Source: Candidatus Moranbacteria bacterium GW2011_GWA2_39_41 (lineage in GTDB: Bacteria; Patescibacteriota; Minisyncoccia; Moranbacterales; UBA2206). From it: DNA of 36,091 nt. Where the stretch lies: assembly GCA_000995125.1 (NCBI GenBank), contig LBXA01000003.1, forward strand, positions 1 to 36,091, in the 5' to 3' direction. The position numbers and the translations under genes are program-made. Of this stretch, positions 27,801-34,721 are shown piece by piece; positions within the stretch are counted from its first letter, which is position 1, and every line of letters begins with the position of its first letter. Below the pieces are notes generated by a model. The model had not been told where the DNA came from. It worked only from the letters and a program-made list of their open reading frames with translations, and made no database searches.

Positions 27801-27828
27801 GTAGAGACGCATTGCAATGCGTCTCTAC
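27801..27828. repeat. Palindromic element copy 6 (variant arms), overlapping the yifB stop codon
   Basis: gtagagacgcattg/caatgcgtctctac perfect palindrome. Confidence 0.95.
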
Positions 27829-29351
27829 TCTGCCTTAAACCGATACTGAATTGCCTCAGCAATATGCGATGGATTTATATTGGGCTCACCAGTCAAATCA
27901 GCAATAGTCCTAGCAACCTTAATAATACGATAATAAGCGCGAGCGCTCAAGTGCAAGGAAGAAACGGCACTTTTCATGAGTTCCAAGCAGCTCTGGTCCA
28001 AAACACAGAACCTTTTTATTTCTGGCCCACCCATTTCGCTATTGGTTATGATGCGAGATCCATTGAAGCGCTGAGCTTGGATGTTTCGGGCTCTTTCGAC
28101 TCGTTTACGAATTGAAACTGATTTTTCTGAAGTTGAATCTTCAGCTAATTTTTCAAATTTGATGCGTGGCACTTCCACATGCAGATCGATGCGATCAAGA
28201 ATCGGTCCAGAAATTTTTCTTTGATATTTGATAATTTGCGCTGGATTGCATGAGCAGGCTTTTTCTGGATCAGTAGCATTGCCACAGGGACATGGGTTCA
28301 TAGCAGCCACAAGTGTGAAGCGAGCGGGAAATTCCAAGGTGCCTTGAGCGCGAGAAACCGTGATGATTCCATCTTCCAATGGTTGGCGCAGGTTTTCCAA
28401 GACTGAGCGAGAAAATTCAGGAAATTCATCCAAAAACAACACGCCACGGTGCGATAGACTGATTTCTCCCGGCTTTGGATAGGTTCCACCACCCACGAGG
28501 GAAACAGCGCTAGCGCTATGGTGTGGCGAGCGAAATTGACGATGCGTCATCAAAGCCGTTTCTTTGGGAAGTTGTCCGGAAACAGAAAATATCTTGGTGA
28601 CCTCAAGTGCTTCAGGCACAGTTAACTTTGGCAAAATAGATGGCATAGTTTTGGCCAAAAGACTTTTGCCTGATCCAGGCGGGCCATTTAAAATAACATT
28701 GTGTCCACCGGCCGCTGCAATTTCCAAAGCACGTTTAGCATGCTCCTGGCCTTTGATGAAAGACATTTCGCACAAATGTTCTTCGTGGGTAAACAAATCA
28801 TTCAAATTTATGGCCGGAAAGGTTGCAATTGTTTTTTGATTGGTTAAATGAGCTATGAGAGAAAGTAGATTGTCTACCGGATAAATATTTAGACCTTCAA
28901 TGACTGAAGCTTCAGCTGCATTTTCTCGGGGGATGAAAATTTCTCGAATGTTTTTTTCTTTAGCCAAAATTGCCATCGGCAACACGCCTTTAACTGGCCG
29001 AACTTTGCCGTCTAGCGCGAGCTCACCTAGAAAAATCTTATTAGTATAATCAAATTTGATTTGCTTGGTGGTCAAAAGAAATCCCAAGGCAATCGGCAGG
29101 TCATAAACTGGACCTTCTTTTTTGAGATCAGCTGGCGCCAAATTCACTGTGATGCGCCCACATTGATGCGGTGGCTTGAATTTGCTATTGCGAATAGCCG
29201 CAGCCACGCGATCTTTGGCTTCTTTGACAGCAGCATCTGGCAAGCCAACAATATTGAATTGATGCAGTCCAGCCGACACCGCATCAACCTCAATTTCTAT
29301 GAGCTCACTCTTAAGACCAATGGTAGCAGTGGATAAGATTTTTGAAGACAC
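27825..29351 (-). CDS. YifB/ComM family Mg-chelatase-like AAA+ ATPase
   Basis: GGHNVILNGPPGSGKSLLAKTMPSILP, REFRSPHHSAS-like segment, GVLFLDEFPEFSRSVLENLRQPLEDG, CPCGN. Confidence 0.95.
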   Translation of the reverse strand: MSSKILSTATIGLKSELIEIEVDAVSAGLHQFNIVGLPDAAVKEAKDRVAAAIRNSKFKPPHQCGRITVNLAPADLKKEGPVYDLPIALGFLLTTKQIKFDYTNKIFLGELALDGKVRPVKGVLPMAILAKEKNIREIFIPRENAAEASVIEGLNIYPVDNLLSLIAHLTNQKTIATFPAINLNDLFTHEEHLCEMSFIKGQEHAKRALEIAAAGGHNVILNGPPGSGKSLLAKTMPSILPKLTVPEALEVTKIFSVSGQLPKETALMTHRQFRSPHHSASAVSLVGGGTYPKPGEISLSHRGVLFLDEFPEFSRSVLENLRQPLEDGIITVSRAQGTLEFPARFTLVAAMNPCPCGNATDPEKACSCNPAQIIKYQRKISGPILDRIDLHVEVPRIKFEKLAEDSTSEKSVSIRKRVERARNIQAQRFNGSRIITNSEMGGPEIKRFCVLDQSCLELMKSAVSSLHLSARAYYRIIKVARTIADLTGEPNINPSHIAEAIQYRFKAE

Positions 29352-29363
29352 TTCTTTAGAATT

Positions 29364-29795
29364 TTAATTTTTATTTTGTGTGATTGAGTATAATGTTATT
29401 ATAACACCAATTGTAATAAATGCATCAGCCAGGTTGAAAACTGACCAAAATCCAAAATTTATAAAATCAATTACACAGCCAAAATACAGGCGATCAAGGA
29501 TGTTTGAGATGGCACCAGCCAATATAAGATAGAGCGCCGGTTTGTATATTGAAAATTTATTGCTATAAATTGCATAAATAATATTACTTATTATGAATAT
29601 CCAAAAAAACCAAAATAACATTACGGGTAATGCGATACTAAAAGAAATGCCCGGGTTGCAAATATAAAATCCGCCCCCATGGCGGACTAAATATTTACTT
29701 AGTTGGTCGATAAAAACCAATGAGGTTGCTAGATATGACAATGTTTGTATGTTTGCAGATTTAAAGTTCATGCTGGATATTAGCATTTTATACAA
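29364..29795 (-). CDS. lspA: Signal peptidase II
   Basis: [19 protein letters not shown] and [12 protein letters not shown] match the LspA catalytic Asp motifs. Confidence 0.88.
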
Positions 29796-30124
29796 GTTTG
29801 CGCAGATGGATTGGCTTGCAATCTTTCAATCGCAATTTCTTGTTTGCAATTATCACAAAATCCATAAGTTCCATTCTCCATTCTTGCTAATGCTGCATTC
29901 ACCTCATGCAACTTCTTTTCCAAAGCTTGTTCCACTGGTAAATTATCAGTATATTCTTCAACTTCAGTAGCATTGTCTTCGCGGTCATTACCAACTTCGT
30001 CAAAAGTTGTGACATATTCGCCATCGGTTGGCTTGGCAATTCTGCCCAAATTGCTTTCTAATTCAGCTTTTTCAGTGAGTAATGCCTCTTTTAGTTCAGT
30101 GAGTGTTTTTGTATCAATGGTCAT
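29780..30124 (-). CDS. TraR/DksA family zinc-finger protein
   Basis: [25 protein letters not shown] zinc finger; [14 protein letters not shown]. Confidence 0.9.
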
Positions 30125-30181
30125 ACATTTGAAATTATAAAATTATAACAAGTTAAGTATATCAATTTAGCATGAGACTGT

Positions 30182-30574
30182 CTATAAGCTCTGAATATGC
30201 TTGATTTTGGCCATTCTAGTCTCAAAATCGAGCCACACTGAGACAGCATCAAAGCGATATGCATAGTTAGCTAATTTATGTTGACGCAGGTAGATGGTGG
30301 CTATTTTGTCGAGCTTGCGGAGTTTTTGGTAAGTTATATTCTCTTCTGGTAGCGTATCTTTGTATTTTGTATATTCACGTGTTTTGACTTCCACAAACAC
30401 AATCTCGTTTTGCTTAGTATCCTTGGCAATAATGTCGATTTCTCCCAAGCGTCGCCCAGAATCGTTCTGGAAATTCATATCCAAAATCTCAAAGCCTTTG
30501 CTTTTGAGAAAATTGGCCGCCACCTGCTCGCCTGTTTGCCCAGTTGTTATTTTTTCATTCATCCACATTGCCAT
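30182..30574 (-). CDS. yraN: YraN family (UPF0102) nuclease-like protein
   Basis: GEQVAANFLKSKGFEILDMNFQNDSGRRLGEIDIIAKD...IVFVEVKTRE. Confidence 0.93.
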   Translation of the reverse strand: MAMWMNEKITTGQTGEQVAANFLKSKGFEILDMNFQNDSGRRLGEIDIIAKDTKQNEIVFVEVKTREYTKYKDTLPEENITYQKLRKLDKIATIYLRQHKLANYAYRFDAVSVWLDFETRMAKIKHIQSL

Positions 30575-30623
30575 TTAAATAGGTCCTATGTGTCCCATTT
30601 GTCCCCAGTATACCATTTTAAAA

Positions 30624-31197
30624 ACAAAAAAAACACCCCGTATGGTGTTATATAAATTATAGAAACCCCGGCGCTCTACAGTTGGAAAACCCAATAATAT
30701 AAATAATTTGGCTCCGTGTAGACGCCGAGGTGTTCATCAATGTGTGAACGCGTAAGATTCTTTTGAATCATTTGGTTCGGGTGAAGAACCATTTGATCAC
30801 AGGGATCTAGCGTGTAAAACTTTGTTTACTTTACACATTGTTTTTGTATCTTTCTAACTTTTGTAGATACTTTTTTCTCTTTACCATTCTCTGGCATATT
30901 GCCTTTGAGGTGGCCAGTAACTACCTAGAAGAGCATTTTTAATGGAAATTGCTACTCGAGGTAGTTACCAACCGTTTTAAAGAACATTTTTTACTTTTTA
31001 TTTTTATTTTTAGTAAAATTTCTATTTTTGTTTTTAGGGTCCGCTGGTTAGAATTCAGCGGCGGCTTCGATTCGTTGATCGAAACACTTGAACAGTAAAG
31101 AGGTTTCAATCGCAAATAGGGGGAAATTGCGATTGAAACTCCGCTACCATTCAAAGAGCCTTATTTCGGCTCGGATTAAGTTTTCAAAGTTCACTAT
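30624..31197 (-). ncRNA. Candidate large structured noncoding RNA (family unknown)
   Basis: Near-consensus promoter upstream, intrinsic terminator at the end, no convincing long CDS, and about ten short-range hairpins in between (for example 31103-31139, 31156-31172, 30917-30968, 30756-30769). Confidence 0.55.
30632..30649 (-). terminator. Intrinsic terminator of the candidate ncRNA
   Basis: - strand: aacacc-atacgg-ggtgtt followed by tttttt. Confidence 0.7.
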
Positions 31198-31203
31198 ACA
31201 ATA

Positions 31204-31232
31204 ATTATAGCAGAAAAATATGCCTCGGTCAA
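31204..31232 (-). promoter_or_regulatory. Strong sigma70-type promoter of the candidate ncRNA
   Basis: - strand TTGACC (31232-31227), 17-nt spacer, TATAAT (31209-31204). Confidence 0.8.
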
Positions 31233-31371
31233 CGTTTGCTGTTATATATTGCAATAATACTAATGAATATTACAATGTATAGCATTTGGATATATTTTTT
31301 TCAAAAATCAAAATTTCAATCAAAAATAATAAGTAAATTTCTTTTTTCAAAGCAGTCTATTTAAAGGAAAT

Positions 31372-32496
31372 TTAATCTTTATTCAACAAGTTATCCACAG
31401 TTTGCTCAGGATTTGTATTTGTCACTGCCGGAATCAGTTTGTCTATAATTGATTGCAAAGTCATCTTAGTTGTTCCAATGAGGAGTTGTTTGTCGGTTAG
31501 CGTATAATCAATGGATAGATCTTCTGGAGAGATTATGTTTTGGTATCGAATATCTAAGCCATTATATATGTTTTTACCAAAAGCAGTTTGTGGCAATTTA
31601 TAGTCTGCGGGCAACAGAATTGGTTCAAGATTTTTAGCAAGTAGCAACTCTTCTTCCAAAAGAACAGTCTGCAGCTTTTCATTTTTGATAAAATCGATTG
31701 CAAGTCCAAGCCCAATAACGCCATTATCATTAAATATGAAGAGACTAAAATTTTTATTTAAAGCAGCTAAGATATTTTTAGATAATGTGAAGCCAATTAT
31801 ATTGGAAAATGTTGCAAAATCGATTGGATTGTTTTGTGAATCAGCGATTGCGAACTCAATAGGTTTGGTTATAGCTGACTTTTTGATATCTTCCGCATAT
31901 TGACTGATAATTTTTTTAATTTGAGAGTTGTTGATGGTAGATGTATCTACAATTAGATAATTCGGTTTATCATTGGAAAAGCTGAGCTCTGGTGTGTACG
32001 CAGTCTCGGTATTTGGCGTAGTTTTTACCTCTAGACTTGGTTCAGTCGTCGCGTCACTTTGACGAGTAATCGCAAAATAATAATACGCGCTTACGCCTAA
32101 AAACAACAACAGCACTCCAGCAATAATTGTAAAAATTTTAGGGCTAGTTGGCTTTTGGGATATATCTTTTGTGATTGGTAATGTTTTTGTGGGAATTGGG
32201 TTGGATGTTGGCATAGTAACTTTTGTAGCAGCAGTGTCCTTAACTGGTGTGGAAACTTTCACGGGCACTTCTGTGCTGAAAAAAGGGCTACTTTTTTGTT
32301 TTTCAGTGACATTTTTGGATATTGTTTGTGTTTCGATTGGCTGTCCTTGTTTGTCGGGGTGTTCTATCTCTTCGATATCTTTAGCCATTGTATAAATAGG
32401 AATATCTTCAATTTTTAAATCTTCGTCTTGGTTAAAATTTTGTTGGTGAGTATTGGCTTCTTTCGCAGTAGCGAAGACATTTTGATTTTTAGTCAT
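31372..32496 (-). CDS. Single-TM hypothetical protein
   Basis: Hydrophilic N-terminus, TM (IFTIIAGVLLLFLGVSAYYYFAI), extracytoplasmic C-terminal domain. Confidence 0.7.
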   Translation of the reverse strand: MTKNQNVFATAKEANTHQQNFNQDEDLKIEDIPIYTMAKDIEEIEHPDKQGQPIETQTISKNVTEKQKSSPFFSTEVPVKVSTPVKDTAATKVTMPTSNPIPTKTLPITKDISQKPTSPKIFTIIAGVLLLFLGVSAYYYFAITRQSDATTEPSLEVKTTPNTETAYTPELSFSNDKPNYLIVDTSTINNSQIKKIISQYAEDIKKSAITKPIEFAIADSQNNPIDFATFSNIIGFTLSKNILAALNKNFSLFIFNDNGVIGLGLAIDFIKNEKLQTVLLEEELLLAKNLEPILLPADYKLPQTAFGKNIYNGLDIRYQNIISPEDLSIDYTLTDKQLLIGTTKMTLQSIIDKLIPAVTNTNPEQTVDNLLNKD

Positions 32497-32550
32497 TTTT
32501 TTTGTTTTAATCCTGCACCTTATGTTTGCAAGAAGATATTTTTAAAAAAT

Positions 32551-32582
32551 AAAATAGAGACAATTTTACTTGTCTCTATTTT
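32551..32582 (-). terminator. Intrinsic terminator downstream of pnp
   Basis: 13-bp stem aaaatagagacaa/ttgtctctatttt, U-rich 3' side on the - strand. Confidence 0.75.
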
Positions 32583-32603
32583 ACAATAAAAATCTATTTT
32601 TGG

Positions 32604-34721
32604 CTACTCAACTTTTTTTGCTGCCGCTTTCATAGAAAGATTGATGCGTCCTTGAGCGTCAATTTCTTTCACCTTGACTGGTACGATGTCTCCGACTGAG
32701 ACAATATCTTCAACTTTTTCCACGCGTGCTTCAGCTAGTTCGGAAATGTGGATCAAACCTTCTTGTCCGGGAAGAATTTCCGCGAAAGCTCCAAAGGTCA
32801 TAATTTTAGTGACTTTCGCTTGGAACAATTCACCAGCTTTCACTTCATGAGTTAGGTTGTCAATCCATTCTTGCGCTTTTTTGGCAGCGATGGCATCTGG
32901 AGAAGTGATGAAAATTGATCCATCATCTTCAATATCAATCTGCACGCCTGTTTCATCGATAATAGCATTGATGATTTTGCCACCTGATCCAATCACATTG
33001 CGAATCTTGTCAGGATTGATATGCATAATCACAATTCTTGGGGCGTATTGGCTCATTTCGGCACGAGGTGTAGGAATAGCAGTGGTGATTTTTTCCATAA
33101 TTTCCATGCGGTTGCCTTTGGATTGAATGAGGACAGCTTTCAACATCTCCAAAGTCACACCTTGCACCTTCACATCCATTTGCAAGGCTGTGATTCCGAC
33201 AGTGGTTCCAGCAGCTTTGAAATCCATGTCGCCATAATGATCTTCCAATCCTTGAATATCAGTCAAAACTTTGAACTTGCTATCGTTTGCTTGGTCAACG
33301 ATGATTCCCATGGCAATGCCAGACACGGGGCGCACAATTGGCACACCAGCATCCATCAAAGACAAGGTTGAACCACAAGTTGAAGCCATAGAAGAAGAGC
33401 CATTTGATTCCAGCACTTCAGAGACTAACAAAATAGTATATGGAAAAACTTCTTTGGCTGGCAACACTGGAATCAAAGCTTTTTCTGCCAAAGCGCCGTG
33501 TCCGATTTCTCTTCGTCCGGGACCGCGCATTGGTCGTACTTCACCCACTGAATATGGTGGGAAATTGTAATGATGGATATATCTTTTCTTCATATCAACT
33601 TCCATCGTGTCGATGATTTGTTCGTCTCCAGGGGAACCCAATGTGGTCACAGTCAAAGCTTGAGTTTCTCCACGAGTGAAAAGCCCGGTGCCATGAGTTC
33701 TTGGCAAAATACCAACTTGGCAATCAATGTGACGAATTTGATCAAGCTTGCGTCCATCTGGGCGTTGTTCTTTTTCCAAAATGTTCTTGTGGACGATCTC
33801 ATCAGAAACCTCTTCAAAAACTTGTTGGGCGATTTCTTTCAACTTGTCGATGCCTTCAGTGAAGTTGGCGGTGATATATTCACCAACTTTTTCGTTGATA
33901 GCTTTGGTTTTTTCTTCAATCACCACTTTGCTTGGATCATACAGTGCTGATTCAAGTCCTTCAGCCAACAAAATTTCTTTGACCTTAGCTTCAAATTCAG
34001 GAGTCCCTTGCAAAAGAGTTGGCACAGCCTTTTCTTTGCCAATTTCAGCTACAATTTCTTCAATGAAAGTTGCAATCTTGGTTATTGCTTCTTGTCCAAA
34101 AGCAAAAGCCTCAACAATAGTTTCTTCTGGCACTTCTTTGGCACCAGCTTCCAACATATTAATTTTGTCTTTTGTTCCAGAAATCACTAGATCCAATTTG
34201 CTATCAGCCAATTCACCATTGACTGGGTTCAAAATGAATTCACCATTTTCAGCTTGTGCCACACGCACCGCGGCCACTGGTCCATTCCAAGGAATGTTGG
34301 AGATTGCTAGGGCGGCTGAAGCTGCAATCACGGAAATTGTATCTGGATCATTTTCGCCGTCAATCGACAAAACAGTCACAATCACTTGGACTTCGTTTCG
34401 CATTCTGGCATTGAAAAGTGGGCGAATTGTTCGGTCTACCACGCGACCAGTCAAAACTGCGTCATCAGATGGACGACCTTCTCGCTTGATAAATCTTGAA
34501 CCTTTGATTTTGCCGGCAGCATAATATCTTTCCTCAAAATCAACCATCAATGGGAAATAACCACTGATGCGAGATGCTCCCTTGCTCATGGTGGCAGCTG
34601 CCAACACGACTGTGTCGCCATAGCGTACAGTTACAGACCCATTGGCTTGTTTCGCCAACAGACCGGTTTCGATCTCCAACACTCGGCCTCCAATTTGGAG
34701 TGACCATTTTTTTTGTGCCAT
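32604..34721 (-). CDS. pnp: Polyribonucleotide nucleotidyltransferase
   Basis: Full-length PNPase with KH (VIGSGGKIINAIIDETG) and S1 domains. Confidence 0.97.
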   Translation of the reverse strand: MAQKKWSLQIGGRVLEIETGLLAKQANGSVTVRYGDTVVLAAATMSKGASRISGYFPLMVDFEERYYAAGKIKGSRFIKREGRPSDDAVLTGRVVDRTIRPLFNARMRNEVQVIVTVLSIDGENDPDTISVIAASAALAISNIPWNGPVAAVRVAQAENGEFILNPVNGELADSKLDLVISGTKDKINMLEAGAKEVPEETIVEAFAFGQEAITKIATFIEEIVAEIGKEKAVPTLLQGTPEFEAKVKEILLAEGLESALYDPSKVVIEEKTKAINEKVGEYITANFTEGIDKLKEIAQQVFEEVSDEIVHKNILEKEQRPDGRKLDQIRHIDCQVGILPRTHGTGLFTRGETQALTVTTLGSPGDEQIIDTMEVDMKKRYIHHYNFPPYSVGEVRPMRGPGRREIGHGALAEKALIPVLPAKEVFPYTILLVSEVLESNGSSSMASTCGSTLSLMDAGVPIVRPVSGIAMGIIVDQANDSKFKVLTDIQGLEDHYGDMDFKAAGTTVGITALQMDVKVQGVTLEMLKAVLIQSKGNRMEIMEKITTAIPTPRAEMSQYAPRIVIMHINPDKIRNVIGSGGKIINAIIDETGVQIDIEDDGSIFITSPDAIAAKKAQEWIDNLTHEVKAGELFQAKVTKIMTFGAFAEILPGQEGLIHISELAEARVEKVEDIVSVGDIVPVKVKEIDAQGRINLSMKAAAKKVE

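Follow-up and report, generated by a model that had tools for sequence, protein, structure and literature searches.

A conserved structured RNA gene beside yraN and dksA in Candidatus Moranbacteria and its relatives

What is encoded by the roughly 575 nt that follow a strong minus-strand promoter and hold no convincing long coding sequence in Candidatus Moranbacteria bacterium GW2011_GWA2_39_41? The window analyzed, meaning the whole stretch of DNA, covers 36,091 nt (GCA_000995125.1, contig LBXA01000003.1, positions 1 to 36,091). An earlier note, made from the sequence alone, had proposed that this part of the window encodes a large, hairpin-rich non-coding RNA of unknown family.

The predicted transcript

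The predicted transcript and its boundaries are as follows.

30625..31197 (-): whole predicted transcript (~573 nt), from promoter and terminator, fold z score and homologs
31204..31232 (-): promoter TTGACC-17-TATAAT, from the sequence; hexamers and exact 17-nt spacer kept in 30/30 homologs
30625..30649 (-): intrinsic terminator, stem 30649..30632 with a T-run

The promoter (31232..31204) matches the consensus at 11 of 12 positions, carries a TG before the -10 hexamer and ranks best among 15 sites in 29500-32700. Each of the 30 best homologs has a promoter of the TTGAC/17 nt/TATAAT type at the start of the RNA. The minimum free energy of the 574-nt transcript is -171.8 kcal/mol, compared to -114.1 +/- 5.8 for dinucleotide shuffles (z = -9.9), and 0/100 shuffles folded as well. 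The longest same-strand ORF in the RNA region is a 71-aa frame with a TTG start. No conserved ORF was found among the RNA homologs, in which ORFs are short and differ in position and sequence, or are absent. The near-consensus promoter, the ~575 nt without convincing coding sequence and the terminal intrinsic terminator claimed by the earlier note were all confirmed. Homology, covariation, promoter conservation and the lack of an Rfam match support its reading as a large hairpin-rich RNA of unknown family; homologs with covariation do exist, so this ground for refutation named in the note does not hold.

Since the promoter is kept, the helices covary and no ORF is conserved, the locus is best read as a structured untranslated RNA. 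Expression data are lacking, and we hold it as practically certain that the conserved structured RNA gene at 31197-30625 (-) is genuine.

Homologs of the RNA

A DNA search of relatives gave matches in 94/95. This is an upper figure because the weaker listed matches are partly low-complexity, A-rich sequence. Over most of its length the RNA is covered by the best matches; for many genera the match lies in the 5' domain, with 75-84% identity. R1, a covariance model of the 5' domain, matched 37/39 genomes of the order listed in the class sample (E<=1.3e-6). The exceptions were G037, whose RNA lacks part of the 5' domain, and G078. Almost no R1 matches were found in the same class outside the order, and in other classes of the phylum R1 matched G461, G468 and G537. 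Two further R1 matches, in G149 (L106) and G452 (L078), had neither the loop described below nor a fitting promoter and were judged to be chance. Because the models match few genomes outside the order, the wide occurrence there rests partly on proximity to dksA and on segments chosen by eye. We consider it very likely that the RNA is present well beyond its home order.

Domain structure and covariation

Reading 5' to 3' along the RNA, the following elements were assigned.

31156..31174 (-): small accessory hairpin, lineage-specific; sequence and fold, missing from most homologs
31090..31152 (-): D2, long 5' hairpin; 18 pairs, 10 of them with double changes, and 98-99.6% of cells paired
31114..31128 (-): near-invariant loop of D2, AATTTCCCCCTATTT; UCCCCCU invariant in 32 diverse sequences
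31090..31103 (-): 3' outer strand of D2, contested between the D2 5' strand and D7; pairing tests
31061..31087 (-): D3 hairpin; double changes in 8 of 10 pairs
31042..31060 (-): D4 hairpin with conserved TTCTRACC-type loop; covariation, similar loop in other classes
30988..31035 (-): A-rich single-strand linker; composition conserved in homologs, also in other classes
30972..30986 (-): second boxA-like sequence TGTTCTTTAAAACGG; many homologs have a AGTTCTTT-type motif, whose function is inferred
30914..30971 (-): hairpin insert, close relatives only; fold and homolog comparison
30893..30906 (-): short hairpin AAAGGC-N-GCC ahead of D7; sequence and alignment
30877..30889 (-): D7, which competes for pairing with 31090-31103; covariation and permutation
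30846..30870 (-): D8 hairpin; predicted fold, homologous stem variable
30739..30839 (-): 3' multi-branch domain; strand covariation in 28 homologs
30666..30729 (-): D12, 3' hairpin; alignment-based helix

In the 5' domain, 98.0% of 899 cells from 29 sequences are standard pairs, and 21/31 pairs show double changes. Covariation was 0.547, compared to 0.244 +/- 0.011 for shuffled alignments (0/500) and no more than 0.157 for slid versions. The 3' half of 28 homologs contains a four-strand domain of the type CAUGUA..UACAUG..ACAUGU..UACAUG, followed by a hairpin and the terminator. Strands 1-4 and 2-3 of this domain covary (z -7.5 and -8.2, 0/10000 permutations). Strand permutation was used here because RNAalifold on the gappy 3' alignment gave a single helix; the permutation tests of helices take no account of phylogeny. 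The home copy and its closest relatives carry a diverged version of the 3' domain that lies outside the search pattern used for the 28 homologs.

Most of the stems listed in the earlier note appear in the predicted fold. Those at 31103-31139, 31066-31083 and 31041-31061, all in the 5' domain, are conserved with covariation, and those at 31156-31172 and 30917-30968 occur in close relatives only. The earlier note took the stem near 30669-30727 for a closing one, but it is a hairpin local to the 3' part and does not join the 5' and 3' ends; the note also overlooked the long-range helix 31090-31103 : 30877-30889.

Different lineages have gained unrelated hairpins at the A-rich linker, L010 and L022 being two of the homologs concerned, so insertions are tolerated there.

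Competition between D2 and D7

D7 lies ~200 nt downstream of D2, resembles the D2 5' strand and can pair with 31090-31103. Duplexes formed with each sequence's own D7 had a mean energy of -17.0 kcal/mol, compared to -11.3 when strands were swapped between sequences (0/20000 permutations, z -12.0); after dereplication to 27 sequences z was -9.7. The stem of D2 itself gave a similar result (-16.1 own, -10.0 swapped). In 26 distinct ungapped sequences, with bulged members counted in a separate set, 95% of the cells of the D7 helix are paired and 8/13 pairs show double changes. The number of double-change cells was 46 compared to 15.4 after shuffling, and covariation was 0.460 compared to 0.293 (0/500 shuffles). 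The strand 31090-31103 covaries with D7 as strongly as with D2's own 5' strand. Pairing of the D7 type was also seen at nine loci in other classes (-13.2 compared to -8.2 swapped, p 0.0002), where the segments were picked by eye and are biased. Forcing the D7 helix costs a median of 5.3 kcal/mol (range -2.8 to 15.1) out of roughly -145, which is small beside the error of such energy models.

The D2 and D7 helices are both conserved yet mutually exclusive, which is most simply explained by an exchange in a fixed order or by a switch between two states. An alternative to an intramolecular exchange, namely that two copies of the RNA pair with each other, is not excluded. We are fairly confident that the three-strand exchange is biologically real.

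Gene neighborhood

The locus in the home order reads pnp - ORF - RNA - yraN - dksA - lspA. The genes around the RNA in the window are listed below.

32604-34721: pnp (Pfam)
30182..30574 (-): yraN (UPF0102), conserved downstream neighbor (Pfam PF02021; downstream in 45/55 loci)
29780..30124 (-): dksA/traR-type zinc-finger gene, a neighbor also in other classes (Pfam PF01258)
29364-29795: lspA (Pfam)
27825-29351: Mg-chelatase-type ATPase gene (Pfam)

Across 55 oriented loci, several of them with incomplete flanks, yraN lies downstream in 45, dksA in 43 and lspA in 36. The ORF between pnp and the RNA, a 374-aa frame at 31372-32496 (-), has no Pfam match; a relative of it occupies this place in 47/55 loci. 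In G461, G494, G551 and G537, dksA is downstream of the RNA without yraN, and in G468 the order is pnp-RNA-dksA-lspA. Upstream of dksA/traR in other classes, without use of any RNA model, we found further stretches of structured non-coding sequence that start from a promoter and contain A-rich linkers and D7-like segments. Judged from sequence, these stretches are probable relatives of the RNA, less certain than the model matches. Such stretches are missing ahead of many dksA/traR genes and, within the same class, ahead of most that belong to orders other than the home one.

The conserved order RNA-yraN-dksA or RNA-dksA, with the terminator directly ahead of yraN, would suit a riboswitch or attenuator, that is, a long leader that regulates yraN-dksA-lspA in cis and in which competing folds control readthrough at 30649-30625. 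Long attenuated leaders are known in other bacteria, but ~570 nt with many domains is an unusual size for one, and the gene that adjoins the RNA varies between yraN and dksA. Two mutually exclusive helices are also what an attenuator would need; however, the exchange takes place >200 nt upstream of the terminator, with 31090-31103 pairing with 31130-31152 or 30877-30889, and 30625-30649 is part of neither helix. The strong constitutive-type promoter in every homolog fits a stand-alone RNA instead. We consider a leader unlikely.

The dksA/traR linkage, which holds in several classes, raises a second possibility, namely that the RNA regulates RNA polymerase in trans as a functional counterpart of 6S RNA with a DksA/TraR-type protein as partner. 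Like 6S RNA, it could be a housekeeping RNA tied to transcription control, and no 6S match was found in any of 56 relatives (0/56). This absence means little because the 6S model detected only 5/14 control genomes, and linkage of genes is by itself weak evidence. The RNA also differs from 6S RNA in size, architecture and sequence: 6S RNA is a ~180-nt single hairpin with a large bulge, and no RF00013 match was found here. Such a counterpart is, in our judgment, rather improbable.

The C-rich loop of D2

The loop of D2, AAUUUCCCCCUAUUU, contains the near-invariant UUUCCCCCUAUU, and the stems that carry it change freely with compensation. The 32 sequences in which UCCCCCU is invariant had been selected for possessing a CCCCC loop. 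R2, a covariance model of the hairpin, matches G457, G494 and G551, from other classes. The same loop is carried by a stem of unrelated sequence in G494, G551 and G537, and in G577 (E 0.004) it is again present on a different stem. R2 was also run on hard negatives, which are non-homologous contigs with the loop sequence. Their 28 pattern matches were chance apart from L049 (JAGGSH010000009.1), a true homolog that scored 78.5 bits, compared to 17.5 bits for the best non-homolog. R2 matches at L169-L172, L174 and L175, with neither loop nor fitting promoter, were judged to be chance.

In four loci of family f10 (L096, L098, L099 and L102) the RNA is kept and the CCCCC loop is lost, with TTTTGTG or CACATCA, for example, in its place. 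This loss is a natural test of the purpose of the loop.

An exposed, near-invariant C-rich loop on changing stems is also what would be expected of an sRNA that pairs with Shine-Dalgarno regions of mRNAs or with another RNA. No shared site complementary to ATAGGGGGAA was found, however, besides the RNA's own antisense. In the window, AGGA, GGAG or GAGG lies within 25 nt of only 2/30 gene starts and G-rich motifs are found at 1/30. This scarcity argues against an anti-Shine-Dalgarno role, and we see only a slim chance that the RNA is such an sRNA.

Known RNA families

Rfam at the gathering threshold gave 0 matches in the window. At E<=10, only chance-level matches were found at the RNA locus, with neither RF00013 nor any bacterial SRP RNA model among them, and ARAGORN found no tmRNA in the window. 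The Rfam scan that the earlier note called for gave no strong match to a known class; the note itself had recognized no signatures of tmRNA, RNase P RNA or SRP RNA. RNase P RNA has no RF00010/RF00011 match at the locus and its gene lies elsewhere in 34/37 relatives; tmRNA scores over the cut-off elsewhere in 34/37, including G000 (C2:35903-36317). SRP RNA was ruled out for the locus only, up to E 10. That the RNA is a diverged universal RNA (RNase P RNA, tmRNA, SRP RNA or 6S RNA) has in its favor a near-universal presence in the order and a size similar to RNase P RNA or tmRNA, but it can be set aside with hardly any reservation, since those two are found elsewhere and are refuted and the Rfam and ARAGORN results above are negative. 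CRISPR repeat RNA, suggested by the palindrome GTTTCAATC..GATTGAAAC, was rejected, as there is one copy at a fixed locus and the Rfam CRISPR-DR2 match (E 6) is chance.

OLE, GOLLD, ROOL and HEARO are stand-alone RNAs of several hundred nt with many helices and mostly unknown function. Our RNA resembles them in length, number of helices and predicted stand-alone transcription. It differs in being tied to one phylum and one chromosomal locus; none of their elements were recognized in it, and neither these nor the other large ncRNAs of Rfam 15 gave a covariance-model match at the locus. We did not find a description of such an RNA in open-access papers; subscription journals, preprints and supplements were outside the scope. 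It looks like a new class of RNA, where the newness is claimed for the class and not for its mode of action.

A boxA-like element shared with 16S rRNA leaders

One more element lies near the start of the transcript.

31174..31192 (-): boxA-like element GAACTTTGAAAACTTAATC, near +9; strict motif in leaders, also in 16S leaders of relatives

GAACUUUGAAAACU sits about nine nt past the predicted start. The strict boxA-like motif was found in 18/30 leaders, compared to 0.28 expected, and the remaining 12/30 are partial and diverge from it. GAACUUUGACAA or a close variant occurs in several 16S leaders of relatives, as well as in those of G461 and G468.

The 16S leader hairpin of the home order, AAUCRCAAUUUUUUGYGAUUAGUCC, has a 3' strand complementary to the 16S trailer, for example GGACUAAUCACAA in G017 and GGACCAACCACAA in G043. 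Because of this complementarity, pre-16S RNA shows the same layout of boxA, hairpin and third strand as our RNA. In the home order, the 5' strand of the hairpin, AATCRCAATTT, is common to both. The two differ in that no rRNA follows our RNA, its loop is C-rich and the 16S leaders of G461, G468 and G537 do not have the shared strand. Pairing in trans with the 16S leader was rejected on this last ground.

At L119-L123, L147 and L148 the hairpin AATCRCAATTTTTTGYGATTAGTCC stands before 16S, with a 5' strand that equals the D2 strand of the RNA. An intron near the 16S 3' end is suggested at L121, L122, L123 and L150, where the 16S match breaks off in an odd way and conserved intron-like sequence, GACCCCGGGAGATCTTACGTTGTT ... 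GAAACTTACGCAGCGTAAGAAGTCAGCTGAATCGTAGTA, comes next.

In E. coli, boxA is necessary and sufficient for the rrn antitermination complex (PMC10250234). As in rrn transcripts antiterminated through boxA, a boxA-like element right after the start of our RNA is followed by a long structured untranslated RNA. For our RNA, recruitment of Nus factors is not shown. Whether the RNA is transcribed by an rRNA-type antitermination complex we regard as an even question, in which Nus factor recruitment and resistance to termination are both inferred.

Discussion

We lean towards the explanation that the locus is an independent gene for a structured untranslated housekeeping RNA of the phylum, ~450-600 nt long and probably abundant. 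Its function is inferred in the absence of transcription or biochemical data. According to this explanation, RNA polymerase would leave the strong promoter, read the boxA-like element at about +9 and turn into an antitermination complex of the rRNA type, which can transcribe through the hairpins. D2 would fold first and expose the UUUCCCCCUAUU loop. Once D7 has been transcribed, which in the window copy is ~200 nt later, it may displace the 5' outer strand of D2 by branch migration, and its pairing would then enclose D3, D4 and the A-rich linker in one domain while the inner D2 hairpin stays intact. The mature RNA may form an RNP and work in trans; the loop and the linker would be its likely sites of binding, in the absence of binding data. 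From the link to dksA/traR one may suspect a role in growth control or around RNA polymerase, with no target identified. To name any one specific cellular function would be little better than a guess.

It remains a tentative possibility that this is a phylum-wide housekeeping RNA of about the importance of tmRNA or RNase P RNA, antiterminated as rRNA is and matured by the three-strand exchange. Change in its stems, too rapid for ordinary homology searches to follow, would then explain why it has escaped notice so far.

The home phylum, taken to be Patescibacteria/CPR from its hundreds of families, its genomes of about 0.4-2 Mb and the earlier note, makes up a large portion of uncultured bacterial diversity and has very small genomes. 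That nearly all genomes of the order keep a ~570-nt RNA despite shedding genes, and that it can be followed into other classes, points to a core function that is apparently undescribed. Concrete handles on it are the exchange among three strands, the boxA-like element at the start and the loop that stays near-invariant while its stems are interchangeable, and the linkage to dksA/traR makes a role related to RNA polymerase directly testable.
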